Positions 7,284-28,325 of a stretch of 64,000 nucleotides of DNA are shown piece by piece (the stretch's first letter is position 1; every line of letters starts with the position of its first letter). The notes under the pieces are model-generated. The model ran no database searches. It was not told the origin of the DNA and saw only the letters and a list, made by a program, of their open reading frames with translations. Position numbers and translations under genes: made by a program. The stretch is taken from NCBI GenBank assembly GCA_903901915.1, contig CAIUSV010000088.1:1-64000 (forward strand), read 5' to 3'. Source of the stretch: an uncultured Rhodospirillaceae bacterium (GTDB lineage Bacteria > Pseudomonadota > Alphaproteobacteria > Rhodospirillales > Magnetospirillaceae).

Positions 7284-8141
7284 ATGCCCCCCGCCCCCCG
7301 ACACCACGCGGAAGAATTGGCCGCCCGGCTGCCGCCGCTGCTGGTGGCGGCGGCAAGGGTCGCCGCCACCGTAGCCGGCGGGATTCATGGCCGCCGCCGC
7401 ACCGGACCGGGCGAAACCTTCTGGCAATACCGCCGCTCGCAGCCGGGCGATGCCGCCGCCGCCATCGACTGGCGGCGCTCGGGGCGCTCCGACCATCTGT
7501 TCGTCCGCGAAACCGAATGGGCGGCGGCTCAGACGGTTTGGCTGTGGCGGGACCGCTCGCCATCCATGGACTGGCGCTCGGCCCCCGACCTGCCGACCAA
7601 GCGTCACCGCGCCGAGCTGCTGATCCTGGCGATGGCGGCGCTGTTGCTGAAGGGCGGCGAACGGGTGGCGCTGCTGTCGGGCGGATTGGCCCCAACCGCC
7701 GGAAACGGGGCGCTGGCGCGGCTGGCGGCGGCGCTGGATCGCGAGAGTGACGGCGGCATCGTGGTCACGCCCCCCCGCCATGCCCCCCTGGTATTGGCCG
7801 GCGATCTGCTGGCACCACTGGACCAGACCGAAGAGATGATCGCCCGATTGGCGGCCGGTGGTGCCATCGGCCATCTGGTGCAGGTGCTGGACCCGGCGGA
7901 GGAGACCCTGCCCTACCGGGGCCATGTCCGCTTCGAGGGACTGGAGGACGACGGCACGAAGCTGGCGCGCCGCGCCGAGGACCTGCGGGCGCCCTACGCC
8001 GCCCGGCTGGCCCACCACCGCGACGGCCTTGCCGCCATCGCCCGCGACCACGGCTGGAGCTTCGCGCTGCACCGCACCGACCAGCCGCCGCAACACGCCC
8101 TGCTGGCGCTGCACGCCCTGCTGTCGGAGCGGACGACATGA
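7284..8141 (+). CDS. DUF58 domain-containing protein (VWA-associated)
   Basis: 285 residues. The DUF58 signature is clear: the GRRRTGPGETFWQYR block with IDWRRSGRSDHLFVRETEW following. DUF58 proteins are encoded next to MoxR ATPases and carry a degenerate VWA-like fold; they are thought to act in envelope or stress functions. The start is the ATG at 7284, eight bases after the hydrolase stop; the longer frame upstream is antisense-like. The TGA at 8139-8141 overlaps an ATG (8138-8140) that now opens the repeat mini-ORF rather than the next gene. Confidence 0.93.
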   Translation: MPPAPRHHAEELAARLPPLLVAAARVAATVAGGIHGRRRTGPGETFWQYRRSQPGDAAAAIDWRRSGRSDHLFVRETEWAAAQTVWLWRDRSPSMDWRSAPDLPTKRHRAELLILAMAALLLKGGERVALLSGGLAPTAGNGALARLAAALDRESDGGIVVTPPRHAPLVLAGDLLAPLDQTEEMIARLAAGGAIGHLVQVLDPAEETLPYRGHVRFEGLEDDGTKLARRAEDLRAPYAARLAHHRDGLAAIARDHGWSFALHRTDQPPQHALLALHALLSERTT

Positions 8142-8269
8142 GCGACCACAGGGAGCGCGGGCGCGTTGAGCGCCCCGGAGCGCAGCGGAGGAGCCCAGGG
8201 AGCGGAGCGACCGCCCGGCGCCTGAGGGCGGAACCAACCAGCGACCACAGGGAGCGCGGCGGACCATGA
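8138..8269 (+). repeat. Palindromic interspersed repeat forming a 43-codon bridging mini-ORF
   Basis: Between DUF58 and the BatA-like gene lies a copy of a repeat also present at 21997-22104 and, tandemly, at 28101-28320. A 20-bp perfect direct repeat (8141-8160 and 8240-8259) flanks 79 bp of unique repeat sequence. The core contains a hairpin with arms GGGCGC at 8159-8164 and GCGCCC at 8170-8175. An ATG overlapping the DUF58 stop opens a stop-free frame of 43 codons that terminates at TGA 8267-8269, overlapping the ATG of the next gene. The peptide includes RGRVERPGAQRRSP and ARRLRA, also encoded by the 22-kb copy. CATGAGC occurs at both ends (8137-8143, 8265-8271), consistent with insertion into an ancestral ATGA overlap. 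Whether the peptide matters is unknown. Confidence 0.85.
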
Positions 8270-10974
8270 GCTGGGTGCCAGGCCTTGCCTTCGCCGCGCC
8301 GTGGGCGCTGGGGCTGCTGACGCTGCTGCCGCTGCTGTGGCGGCTGCTGAGGGTGACGCCGCCGGAACCGGTGCTGGTGCGCTTCCCCGCCATCCGCCTG
8401 CTGCTCGGCATCCCCGACCGCGACCAAACCCCGGCCGGTATGCCGCCCTGGCTGCTGGCGCTGCGGCTGGCGCTGACGGCGGCACTGATCCTGGCGGCGG
8501 CACGGCCGCTGCTTGACCCCGCCCGGCCCCAGACCCTGGCCGCCGGGGCGCTGCTGGCGGTGATCGACGACGGCTGGGCCGCCGCCCGCGATTGGCCGGC
8601 ACGGCGCGACCATCTCGACGGGTTGATGGCCGCCGCCGAACGGAGCGGACGGCCGGTACTGCTGCTGGGAACCGCCCCTTCGGCCGACGGCGGCCCCATC
8701 GCTCCGCCCCGGCTGACTCCTGCGGCCGAGGCCCGTGCCGCCCTGGCCGGACTGGCACCCAAGCCTTGGGCCACCGACCGCCGCGCCGTCGCCCTGGCGC
8801 TGAAGGATATCTCGCGGGAGCGGGTGGCGCGGGCGGTATGGCTGAGTGACGGGCTAGACGGCGACGGCGTGGCGGAGCTGGCGCGGACACTGCAGAACCA
8901 GGCCGGGGGGCTGGAAGTGATCGAGGGACGGAGCGGCCGACTGTTACTGCCGCCCGCCGAGGATTCCCCGCCCGACCGCTTGACCACCACGATCCGCCGC
9001 CTGCCGGAGCCACGGGCCGAGGCGGTGACGGTGCGCGGCCTGGATGCCGCCGGCACCGTGCTGGTCCGGCAAGAAGCCACCCTGGAGCCCGGCCGCGGCG
9101 AGGCGGCGGTGACGCTGACCCTGCCGCCCGAACTGCGCAACCGGCTGGTCCGGATCGATATCGAGGGTGAGGCCGGGACCGGCTCGACCGTCCTGCTCGA
9201 TGAACGTTGGCGCCGCCGCTCGGTGGGGCTGGCCGGTGGCGGCCAGGGCGGCACACCGCTGCTCGACCGGCTCTACTATGTGGACCGGGCGTTGGCGCCC
9301 TATGCCGATCTCCGGCGCGGTGACGCCGCCGAACTGACGGGCGACGACGGCCCCGCCGTGGTGGTACTGGCCGACCTGCCGGTGGCCGCCGGGCCACTGG
9401 CCGACCGGCTGGCGGCACGGGTGCGCCAGGGCGCCGTGCTGGTACGCTTTGCCGGGCCGCTGCTGGCCCAGGCGGTCGGCGCCGACACCGACCCGCTGCT
9501 GCCGGTGCGGCTGCGCGGCGGCGGCCGCGCCCTGGGCGGCGCCATGTCATGGACGACGCCGATGAAGCTGGCGCCATTTCCCGAAGGCAGCCCCTTCCTC
9601 GGCCTGACGGTGCCCGCCGAGGTCGAGGTTACCGCCCAGGTGCTGGCCGAGCCGTCGCCCGAGCTGGCGTCGCGCGGTTGGGCCTCACTGACCGACGGCA
9701 CCCCGCTGGTCACCGCCGAACGTCTGGGCAAGGGCTGGGTGGTGCTGATCCATACCACCGGTAACGCCGAATGGAGCAATCTGGCCCTGTCGGGCCTGTT
9801 CGTCGACATGCTGCGACGGCTGGTGGCGCTGTCCCAGGGCGGTGGCGGCGCCGTCGCCGGTGGGGCGCCGCTGCCGCCGGCCCTGCTGCTCGACGGATTC
9901 GGCCGTACCTCCGCCCCCGGCGGCGTCGCCGCCCCCATCACCGACGGGATCGGACAAACCCGGCCGGGGCCGCGCCATCCACCCGGCCTCTACGGCCCCG
10001 CCGAAGGCCTCGTCGCCTTCAACCTGTCGCCGACGGTGGCACCCCTCCTGCCGCTGACGCCGCCGCCCGGAAGCATCTTTGCCACCCTGGGCGGCCAACG
10101 GGCGGAGATCGACCTCGGCCCCGCCCTGCTGATCGCCGCGCTGCTGCTGGCAGTGGCCGACGTACTGGCGTCGCTGTGGCTGCGGGGCGCGCTGCGACGC
10201 GCCTTGCCGCTGCTGCTGCTGCTGGCAATTCCGTTTGAAGCCTCCGCCGCCCCCGCCGCCACTCCCATCGATGCCGCCCTGGCCACCCGGCTGGCCTGCG
10301 TCCGGACCGCCGACGCCGCCGTCGATCGCGACTGCCTCGCCGGACTCAAGGGCCTGTCCCAAATCGTCGGCGAACGCTCGACCGCCAGCCTGGCCGACCC
10401 GGTGTCGGTGGATATCGAGCATGACCCGGTGGTGTTCTATCCGTTGCTGTACTGGCGGATGACGCCGGGCCAGACGCCGCCGTCGGCCGCCGCCGTGGCG
10501 CGGCTCAACGCCTATATGGCCAAGGGCGGCCTGATCGTGTTCGACACCGCCGACCAGGGCGAGGCCGCCATGGCAGCCGCCGCCCCCGACCTCGCCCACC
10601 TGCGCGCCCTGGTGCAGGGACTGGCGTTGCCGCCATTGGCGCCGCTGGCCGCCGACCATGTGCTCAACCGCGCCTTCTACCTGTTGAAGGAGGCGCCGGG
10701 GCGCAGCGACGGCGGCGTGGTCTGGATCGAACGGGGCGGCGCCGGCGGCGGCAATGACGGGGTATCGCCGGTGGTGCTGGGCGGCAACGACTGGACCGGC
10801 GCCTGGGCGGTGGACGAGCGCGGCCGACCGCTGCACGCGGTGGTTCCCGGCGGCGAACGCCAACGCGAGATGGCCTACCGCTTCGGCGTCAATCTGGTGA
10901 TGTACGCCCTGACCGGCAATTACAAGGCCGATCAGGTCCACCTGCCGGCGATCATGGAGCGGTTGGGGCGATGA
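8266..10974 (+). CDS. BatA-N / DUF4159 double-domain membrane protein
   Basis: 902 residues. The N-terminus has the BatA-type pattern: a membrane helix (about 7-25), RFPAIRLL, and a second helix (about 64-80) ending ARPLLDP. A long periplasmic-type region follows, then further hydrophobic segments at about 620-660. The C-terminal 220 residues match DUF4159, starting near VDIEHDPVVFYPLLYWR and containing LNAYMAKGGLIVFDT. Such proteins belong to the MoxR/DUF58 cluster of alphaproteobacteria; their molecular role is not established. Start is ATG 8266. The stop overlaps the next start (ATGA), indicating translational coupling. Confidence 0.9.
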   Translation: MSWVPGLAFAAPWALGLLTLLPLLWRLLRVTPPEPVLVRFPAIRLLLGIPDRDQTPAGMPPWLLALRLALTAALILAAARPLLDPARPQTLAAGALLAVIDDGWAAARDWPARRDHLDGLMAAAERSGRPVLLLGTAPSADGGPIAPPRLTPAAEARAALAGLAPKPWATDRRAVALALKDISRERVARAVWLSDGLDGDGVAELARTLQNQAGGLEVIEGRSGRLLLPPAEDSPPDRLTTTIRRLPEPRAEAVTVRGLDAAGTVLVRQEATLEPGRGEAAVTLTLPPELRNRLVRIDIEGEAGTGSTVLLDERWRRRSVGLAGGGQGGTPLLDRLYYVDRALAPYADLRRGDAAELTGDDGPAVVVLADLPVAAGPLADRLAARVRQGAVLVRFAGPLLAQAVGADTDPLLPVRLRGGGRALGGAMSWTTPMKLAPFPEGSPFLGLTVPAEVEVTAQVLAEPSPELASRGWASLTDGTPLVTAERLGKGWVVLIHTTGNAEWSNLALSGLFVDMLRRLVALSQGGGGAVAGGAPLPPALLLDGFGRTSAPGGVAAPITDGIGQTRPGPRHPPGLYGPAEGLVAFNLSPTVAPLLPLTPPPGSIFATLGGQRAEIDLGPALLIAALLLAVADVLASLWLRGALRRALPLLLLLAIPFEASAAPAATPIDAALATRLACVRTADAAVDRDCLAGLKGLSQIVGERSTASLADPVSVDIEHDPVVFYPLLYWRMTPGQTPPSAAAVARLNAYMAKGGLIVFDTADQGEAAMAAAAPDLAHLRALVQGLALPPLAPLAADHVLNRAFYLLKEAPGRSDGGVVWIERGGAGGGNDGVSPVVLGGNDWTGAWAVDERGRPLHAVVPGGERQREMAYRFGVNLVMYALTGNYKADQVHLPAIMERLGR

Positions 10975-21153: not shown

Positions 21154-22000
21154 GGGGCTTCTTCGCGCGCATATCCTCGGCCAGCTTGTGCTTGCGGGCC
21201 TTGGCCGCCACCCGCTGATCCTTTTCGCGCTCGCCGGCGGGGCGGGCGTCGGCCTTGGCGTGCAGCACCGCCTTGCCCTCGCCCAACTGTTCGCGCAACA
21301 CCTTGCCGGGGACTTCCTCGGCGGCGCCCTCGTCCAGGATGCCGAGTTGGAACGGACCATAGGCGACACGGATCAGCCGGGTCACCGGCCAGCCCAGATG
21401 CTCCATCACCCGGCGGATCTCGCGGTTCTTGCCCTCGTGCAGCGACACGGTCAGCCAGGCGTTGGCGCCTTGCTGGCGGTCCAGCGTCGCCTTGATCGAG
21501 CCATAGGCGATGCCCTCGACGGTGACGCCGCGATCCAGCCGCGCCAGGGCCTCGGCGTTGACCTCGCCGTGAACGCGCACCCGATAGCGCCGCACCCAGG
21601 CGTTGGACGGCAGTTCAAGCTTGCGTGCCAGTTCGCCGTCGTTGGTCAGCAGCAGCAGCCCTTCGGAATTGAGATCCAGCCGGCCGACCGAGACCACCCG
21701 GGGTAGTCCCTCGGGCAATTTGTCGAACACCGTCGGCCGCCCTTCCGGATCCTTGTGGGTGGTGACCAGCCCGGCTGGCTTGTGATAGCGCCACAGCCGG
21801 GTGCGCTCGGGTTCGGCCAGCGGTTGACCGTCCACCAGAATCACATCGCCGGGGCCGACCACGCAGGCGGGGCTGTCGAGCCTGCTGCCGTTCACCACCA
21901 CCCGCCCCGCCTCGATCCAGCGCTCGGCCTCGCGGCGCGAACACAACCCGGCGCGGGCCAGCCGCTTGGCGATGCGCTCCCCTTCGGCTCGCTCGGTCAT
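21128..22000 (-). CDS. RluB/RsuA-type 23S/16S rRNA pseudouridine synthase
   Basis: 290 residues. N-terminal S4 RNA-binding domain (RLARAGLCSRREAERWIEAGRV), then the catalytic RsuA domain with VGRLDLNSEGLLLLTNDG, where the Asp of GRLD is the nucleophile, and KNREIRRVMEHLGWPV. The C-terminal 50 residues are Lys/Arg-rich. RluB (23S U2605) is the most likely activity; RluE/RsuA types are alternatives. The first nine codons (MTERAEGER) occur a second time 104 bp upstream as part of the inserted repeat. The start at 21998-22000 overlaps the stop of the repeat mini-ORF. Confidence 0.92.
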   Translation of the reverse strand: MTERAEGERIAKRLARAGLCSRREAERWIEAGRVVVNGSRLDSPACVVGPGDVILVDGQPLAEPERTRLWRYHKPAGLVTTHKDPEGRPTVFDKLPEGLPRVVSVGRLDLNSEGLLLLTNDGELARKLELPSNAWVRRYRVRVHGEVNAEALARLDRGVTVEGIAYGSIKATLDRQQGANAWLTVSLHEGKNREIRRVMEHLGWPVTRLIRVAYGPFQLGILDEGAAEEVPGKVLREQLGEGKAVLHAKADARPAGEREKDQRVAAKARKHKLAEDMRAKKPHANRRRTP

Positions 22001-22104
22001 GACATGGCCCTCAAACGCCGGGCGCCCACTCCGTGGGCTGGGCTCCTCCGCTGCGCTCCGGGGCGCTCAACGCGCCCGCGCTCCCCTTCGGCTCGCTCGG
22101 TCAT
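21997..22104 (-). repeat. Palindromic interspersed repeat forming a 35-codon bridging mini-ORF
   Basis: A second copy of the repeat family, here with a 27-bp perfect direct repeat (21974-22000 and 22078-22104) that includes the first nine codons of the pseudouridine synthase gene. On the minus strand an ATG at 22102-22104 overlaps the TGA of the upstream amidotransferase gene. It opens a stop-free frame of 35 codons that ends with TGA 21997-21999, overlapping the pseudouridine synthase ATG. The peptide shares RGRVERPGAQRRSP and GARRLRA with the 8-kb copy. Hairpins include CCCAC-TCC-GTGGG and GGGCGC-TCAAC-GCGCCC on the plus strand. Confidence 0.88.
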
Positions 22105-28100: not shown

Positions 28101-28320
28101 CTTGCCCCTCAGGCGCCGGGCGCCCACTCCGTGGGCTTGGCTCCTCCGCTTCGCTCCGGGGCGCTCAACGCGCCCGCGTTCGGCTTACGCCTCGCTCGTC
28201 CTTGCCCCTCAGGCGCCGGGCGCCCACTCCGTGGGCTTGGCTCCTCCGCTTCGCTCCGGGGCGCTCAACGCGCCCGCGTTCGGCTTACGCCTCGCTCGTC
28301 CTTGCCCCTCGGGCGCCGGG
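28101..28320. repeat. Tandem array of the palindromic repeat: two identical 100-bp units plus 20 bp
   Basis: Bases 28101-28200 and 28201-28300 are identical, and 28301-28320 begins a third unit with 19 of 20 matching. Each unit contains the hairpins CCCAC-TCC-GTGGG and GGGCGC-TCAAC-GCGCCC on the plus strand, the same core found at 8.2 kb and 22.0 kb. Minus-strand translation gives the same RGRVERPGA.RRS peptide, but here a TAA interrupts the frame and the 100-bp period shifts phase, so no bridging ORF exists. The array sits in the 240 bp between the HAD-IIA stop and the ferredoxin reductase start. Confidence 0.95.
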
Positions 28321-28325
28321 CGGAG

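Follow-up and report, generated by a model that had tools for sequence, protein, structure and literature searches.

Short open frames formed by repeats at overlapping gene junctions in a lineage of Rhodospirillaceae

We analysed a 64,000-nucleotide stretch of DNA from an uncultured Rhodospirillaceae bacterium (positions 1 to 64,000 of contig CAIUSV010000088.1, assembly GCA_903901915.1; hereafter the window), in which a repeat, here called family A, is located between a gene for a DUF58 protein and a BatA-like gene. The repeat forms a frame of 43 codons that begins in an ATGA shared with the stop codon of the DUF58 gene and ends in an ATGA shared with the start codon of the BatA-like gene. In closely related genomes, this junction and two others are either direct overlaps or contain inserts of several different sequences, all of which are joined to both neighbouring genes by stop/start overlaps. 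We consider it probable, at roughly 80%, that translational coupling at these junctions is under selection, that inserts persist mainly as relay mini-open reading frames (mini-ORFs), and that family A also carries this geometry itself.

The first-pass annotation of the locus had described a frame running from ATGA to ATGA, and both its coordinates and its two overlaps are exact in the sequence. The ATG of the bridge (8138-8140) overlaps the upstream stop codon, the TGA of the bridge (8267-8269) overlaps the ATG of the BatA-like gene (8266-8268), and the distance between the two ATGs is 128 nt, which is 2 modulo 3. The motif CATGAGC is present at both edges, and the 20-bp direct repeat AGCGACCACAGGGAGCGCGG occurs in two exact copies (Table 1). 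When up to three mismatches are allowed, the 19-nt core of AGCGACCACAGGGAGCGCGG has no other site in the window (0.18 expected). The proposed setting in a MoxR operon is backed by Pfam, which recognizes a MoxR-type AAA gene, the DUF58 gene and the BatA/DUF4159 gene, and the ORF list places an ORF of 264 amino acids between the first two. The nearest named relatives of the DUF58 gene are found in Phaeospirillum, Magnetospirillum and similar taxa. The 43-residue bridge peptide has no Pfam match at E ≤ 0.001, the repeat stretch in the window has no Rfam match at E ≤ 1, and a search of the phage collection returned no match at E ≤ 1e-5.

The same junctions in other genomes

We compared three junctions in a total of 49 cases, represented by 13 loci for DUF58-batA, 18 genomes for ruvA-ruvB and 18 genomes for murD-ftsW. 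For DUF58-batA, 13 of the 18 genomes were usable; three had no match, and in two the gene was split into fragments at the ends of contigs. Because ruvA-ruvB and murD-ftsW were picked after family A bridges had come to light at these junctions, the family A copies there are not blind observations, whereas the other inserts are. A further junction, ruvB-ybgC, was left uncounted because the automatic reading missed the short right-hand gene in most genomes.

All insert-free sites, which come from the genus and one neighbour, are direct overlaps: 7/7 at DUF58-batA, 9/9 at ruvA-ruvB and 10/10 at murD-ftsW (26/26 in total). This agrees with the suggestion in the first-pass annotation that the repeat had entered an ancestral four-base overlap. 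We counted 23 inserts of several sequences, 20 of which are bridged with an NTGA at every link, while the other three have one TGATG or TAATG link; a 24th candidate (L054 in genome G002) turned out to be a direct overlap and was excluded. At DUF58-batA, genome G007 contains a composite insert of 356 nt (119 codons) and genomes G004, G008 and G010 contain 140-nt inserts of other sequence (47 codons), all of which run from ATGA to ATGA, and genome G017 contains an insert of 12 codons that runs from GTGA to ATGA. Inserts of 4-95 codons are present at ruvA-ruvB in 9 of the 18 genomes, and inserts of 24-81 codons at murD-ftsW in 8 of the 18. The four family A copies at murD-ftsW have 34, 41, 41 and 81 codons, and all have kept phase 2, that is a distance of 2 modulo 3. 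The inserts of G004 and G013 at ftsW, and those of G008 and G010 at batA, look shared by descent. In seven junction clusters, one genome contains family A and another contains family B, a second repeat that is described below.

Repeat families A and B

With positions 8130-8275 as query, at least 53 matches to family A at E ≤ 10 were found in this genome, at least 36 of them below 1e-3, and matches at E ≤ 1e-3 were present in at least 32 of the 60 genomes searched, this genome included. A profile built from 17 copies was scanned over stretches fetched after further searches in 15 genomes, which yielded 141 full-length arrays after removal of duplicates, 12 of which are at contig edges. The genomes are mostly drafts, and their assemblies may have collapsed tandem arrays. 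The other 129 arrays are located between co-directional genes (118) or precede the right-hand gene of a divergent pair (11), and 112 of the 118 co-directional arrays are in sense orientation. At 94 junctions, a start codon (ATG, GTG or TTG; predicted, as in all counts) overlaps the upstream TGA. These comprise 74 bridge chains, 11 fusions that form N-terminal extensions and 9 that are neither, and 72 of the 94 are bridge chains with a downstream start no more than 45 nt from the array end. A single mini-ORF makes up 60 of the 71 sense bridges, often with 33-36 or 41-43 codons. Arrays reach six units, with chains of two to five mini-ORFs, as in the tandem chains of 34+34, 35+34, 34+45, 15+34, 15+36+36+36 and 12+35+35+35+36 codons. 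In this genome, the 22 full-length arrays are divided into 11 bridges, one fusion, six at contig edges and four that are neither.

For single frames, a length of 2 modulo 3 is true by definition inside the bridged set; the phase counts use all overlapping junctions. The copies of family A do not fall at random phase: measured from the overlapping start, the downstream frame is in phase 2 at 62 of the 78 single-unit overlapping junctions, in phase 0 at 13 and in phase 1 at 3. No clear bias is seen at the 15 single-unit junctions that lack such a start (phases 0/1/2 = 3/7/5). Among the 54 orthologous clusters with one single-unit phase, 45 are in phase 2, seven in phase 0 and two in phase 1 (p = 5e-14 against an expectation of 1/3). 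When only ATG was accepted and the downstream start had to lie within 45 nt, 60 of 75 ATGA junctions were bridged and 10 were fused. In-silico deletion of 1 nt in the middle of these 75 arrays left 3 bridges and 1 fusion, and deletion of 2 nt left 8 and 20, respectively. A looser bridge control (right start within 400 nt, TTG allowed) had passed many of the shifted versions (28 bridges and 1 fusion, and 16 and 23, of 94) and was replaced by these stricter ones (45-nt limit; ATG only).

The aligned family A unit has (A)TGAGCGA at its 5' end and GAGGG at its 3' end. Among the sense junctions, the start codon follows the end of the profile at a distance of 9, 11 or 12 nt in 65/91 of those with an overlap and in 13/18 of the rest. 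With frames counted from the 3' end of the match in 88 copies, the three frames are open in 69, 30 and 1 copies. The earlier description of the repeat as palindromic needs qualification: compensatory changes across copies support hairpins, but a folded RNA is not supported for the window copy by itself, which folds no more stably than shuffled sequences (z = -0.09). In an RNAalifold analysis of 19 copies (at most one per junction cluster, length 98-104 nt, clean left edge), 24 pairs were predicted, nine of which have two-sided changes. Among the peptides of 14 of these copies and of the window copy, only four residues are invariant in the 15 aligned, and the hairpin region is read in differing frames, which suggests that structure and openness are kept in family A rather than the peptide. 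In a comparison of left and right contexts of family A, a local score of 10 was reached at 8% of the loci and in 2% of cross-locus pairs. Target-site duplication as the general origin of the paired ATGA sites is not supported as a rule, and is visible at single loci.

Family B, which is the insert at DUF58-batA in G008 and G010, is unrelated in sequence to family A. At least 113 matches were found across four of the five genomes searched, none in this genome among the matches listed, and 75 arrays were scored at those of the matching loci that were retrieved. At co-directional junctions, 28 are in sense and 30 in antisense orientation. Overlapping junctions are in phase 2 in 28/31 cases and bridged in 24/31 (27/30 and 23/30 with a double-counted place removed). 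The 25 junctions without overlap have no clear bias (phases 0/1/2 = 10/6/9, or 9/6/8 without two double-counted places); at L277, L257 and L318, one place each was scored on both strands. Phase 2 is the only phase in 19 of 22 clusters (p = 4e-7), and the frame in use is open in 29/31 cases, against a mean of 0.645 of frames. Family B occurs in both orientations and its flanks vary in length, which makes it unlikely that its phase stems from an inherited length. The shift control is weak for this family because about two frames are open per strand, and the case for family B thus rests on phase. Terminal inverted repeats were seen by eye in the copies at L057 and L058 (TGTCATCCC...GGGATGACA), whereas the hairpins of family A are internal, and a long duplication is visible at L057.

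Several further observations concern the placement of family A. The window contains a second bridge (21997-22104, minus strand) ahead of a gene starting at 22000 on the minus strand, which is probably RluB-like, to judge by its N-terminal motif, and the first 27 nt of this gene repeat the family A 5' end. At this locus (L013), at L012 and at the ftsW-murG junction of genome G001 (L346), the 5' end of the element is joined in frame to the downstream gene, as a scar-like remnant or an N-terminal extension. Two to three tandem units with a spacing of 100 are located at 28106-28323 (minus strand) and form no bridge, with a TAA in frame. At L035, L148 and L153, the element's own 3' end is matched before the left ATGA, as would be left by the partial loss of an earlier unit. 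Many 72-bp variant copies with equal scores, several of them contig-terminal, are present in genome G021 from a related genus (L149, L154, L158, L162 and L167). Family A arrays also end contigs C14, C19, C38, C49, C66 and C79 of genome G000, which suggests that the repeats break the assembly.

Table 1. Features of the DUF58/BatA-like locus and of the second bridge, in window coordinates
Feature	Position	Strand	Basis
DUF58 gene, upstream partner	7284..8141	+	Pfam PF01882, 9.1e-28; stop TGA at 8139-8141
Upstream ATGA, DUF58 stop and start of bridge frame	8138..8141	+	Sequence
Bridge mini-ORF, 43 codons and TGA (132 nt)	8138..8269	+	ORF list, sequence
Family A repeat unit (L001 1509-1597)	8138..8226	+	Profile match
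20-bp direct repeat, left copy, 5' end of unit	8141..8160	+	Exact match
20-bp direct repeat, right copy	8240..8259	+	Exact match; probably where a second, incomplete unit begins (spacing 99)
Hairpin 1, GGGCGC-GTTGA-GCGCCC	8159..8175	+	Arm covariation across copies, alignment columns 26-42
Hairpin 2 region (approximate)	8197..8212	+	Arm covariation across copies, alignment columns 69-84
AGGGAG before ATG 8266, Shine-Dalgarno-like	8250..8255	+	Sequence reading; putative function
Downstream ATGA, bridge stop and BatA-like start	8266..8269	+	Sequence
BatA/DUF4159 gene, downstream partner	8266..10974	+	Pfam PF07584, 1.3e-13; PF13709, 9.5e-46
Second family A bridge (L013), 35 codons, ATGA at both ends	21997..22104	-	Precedes RluB-like gene starting at 22000 (-)

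Proposed selection on coupling and its alternatives

We propose that a hairpin-forming family A repeat, most likely mobile, landed in an ancestral 4-nt stop/start overlap inside the operon, where the insert would have become a short open frame from the old ATGA to the new one. A ribosome that finishes the DUF58 gene would then re-initiate on the mini-ORF, translate its 43 codons and re-initiate once more at the start of the BatA-like gene. Under purifying selection on translational coupling, and perhaps also on keeping the RNA translated, DNA entering such an overlap would persist mainly if its length is 2 modulo 3, its frame is open and overlaps are present at both ends; less often, inserts of 0 modulo 3 may persist and be read through as an N-terminal extension. 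In Escherichia coli and Haloferax reporters, coupling was almost lost when stop and start were separated by about 20 nt (PMC10666635), which would give a selective reason for inserts to be bridged. With its sense orientation, one mostly open frame and a near-fixed spacing to the start codon, family A would spread and stack easily, and because the geometry is built in, new and tandem copies would bridge by inheritance. The two options left by the first-pass annotation, selection for hand-over or an element built as a linker ORF, each hold in part: selection on phase is indicated by family B and the remaining inserts, while family A is in addition built as a linker with mostly one open frame. 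More tentatively, and with less confidence than an even chance would give, family A could be a self-spreading translation adaptor with its own stop/start overlap, open frame and Shine-Dalgarno-like end, able to enter ruvA-ruvB and murD-ftsW without uncoupling them and to stack into chains whose number tunes the downstream gene, in which case the overlaps in this lineage would act as a sequence-independent filter that makes insertions into relay mini-ORFs.

A rather unlikely alternative is that the insertion machinery and not selection produced the pattern, in that the element integrates at ATGA and inherits a length of 2 modulo 3, with bridging as a by-product. The nearly uniform sense orientation of family A, its prevailing spacing of 9, 11 or 12 nt, the one frame that is open in 69/88 copies and the bridging of tandem units in chains speak for such a mechanism. 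However, it leaves unexplained the phase of family B, which is found in both orientations with locus-specific flanks, as well as the inserts with other sequences, 4 to 119 codons long, that share these junctions, and the family A copies at murD-ftsW vary in length and yet are in phase 2. We also regard it as unlikely that selection mainly disfavours untranslated RNA instead of favouring re-initiation at the start of the downstream gene. Polarity is attributed to the loading of Rho on untranslated RNA in passages of PMC12548453, and an open bridge would keep the RNA covered, but polarity alone would presumably not require an overlap at both ends.

The idea that the bridge encodes a peptide of use to the cell or acts as a specific regulatory RNA, with coupling as a secondary matter, seems improbable to us. 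The two-sided changes in 9/24 predicted pairs speak for it, but the aligned peptides have few invariant residues, the frame in which the hairpins are read differs between copies, the window peptide and repeat stretch lack matches in Pfam and Rfam at the thresholds given above, and other sequences are found at these junctions in an identical arrangement. It is most improbable that the pattern arose by chance or from faulty gene calling: long open frames are common in high-GC DNA, but the same script gave no clear phase bias at the junctions without an overlapping start (15 for family A, 25 for family B), and most family A bridges are lost upon the in-silico shift.

Several points weigh against selection on coupling as the explanation. 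Gene frames were called with a simple base-position model, for which four genes of the window served as the training set, rather than taken from annotation, and a permissive rule that allows GTG, TTG and TGATG still passes 7 and 13 of the 23 inserts after a deletion of 1 or 2 nt, respectively. Outside the genus, only 18 of 37 complete named DUF58-batA loci have a direct overlap or a bridge; the 19 scored as having neither include L356, a missed ATGA overlap, and L378, where a gap of 82 nt is unbridged by the rule used. Among the overlapping family A junctions, 9/94 are unbridged, or 11 if the downstream start is required within 45 nt; L270, L271, L033 and L302 use TGATG or 8-nt overlaps, and others look broken or uncoupled. 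Family A is also found at junctions without overlap (20 co-directional and 11 divergent) and is thus not confined to coupled junctions, and its length of 2 modulo 3 could come from the source copy. For family B, 7/31 overlapping junctions are unbridged, or 9/31 with the 45-nt limit, and of 20 junctions scored with ATG only, 14 are bridged, with 5 bridges left after deletion of 1 nt and 3 bridges and 9 fusions after deletion of 2 nt.

Comparison with known systems

The first-pass annotation named the palindromic elements of Rickettsia as the nearest analogue, which we replace by the mycobacterial interspersed repetitive units (MIRU). MIRU are the closest known system, likened here by arrangement and not by a comparison of sequences. 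In the work of Supply et al. from 1997, they are reported to form tandem units in one orientation with a DTGA target. Family A likewise has up to six tandem units per array and follows the orientation of the flanking genes in 112/118 cases, traits that MIRU are said to share. Another likeness is the 4-nt overlap with the gene start, in that 60/75 family A ATGA junctions are bridge chains, for which coupling is probable. A 2025 review (PMC12548453) describes MIRU as seemingly mobile repeats that insert at start codons in such a way that the ORF within the unit and the gene are coupled at -4 nt. Unlike MIRU, which belong to another phylum, the repeats here are associated with a DUF58 gene related to those of Phaeospirillum, Magnetospirillum and similar taxa. 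The repeats here also form chains of up to five putatively coupled mini-ORFs, some are fused in frame, and several unrelated sequences are found at the same junctions.

Rickettsia palindromic elements are likewise small hairpin repeats that leave the host reading intact. They are described as in-frame insertions into genes in passages of PMC10969869, whereas family A is mostly a separate frame between genes (11 fused versus 74 bridged of 94). Enterobacterial repetitive intergenic consensus (ERIC) elements and the enterobacterial repeat units (RU) are similar in their intergenic position and in having open frames able to become fused to genes (PMC2759123); the parts of that source concerned describe fusions but no stop/start overlaps at both ends. 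Termination-reinitiation coupling at ATGA and TGATG, with overlaps of 4 nt and 1 nt between ordinary genes, is treated in passages of PMC6728339 and PMC10666635, and the same overlaps are seen here, but the insertion becomes an extra frame. The open-licence literature that we searched contained no report of family A, nor of a coupled junction at which repeats without relationship to each other have converged.

Unrelated inserts at the same junctions in a coupling-preserving form provide an evolutionary test of how far bacteria depend on stop/start overlaps, and the importance of coupling by 4-nt overlaps in native operons becomes a question that comparative genomes and simple reporters can answer. 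The arrangement described for the mycobacterial repeats is hereby extended to another phylum, with many natural replicates.
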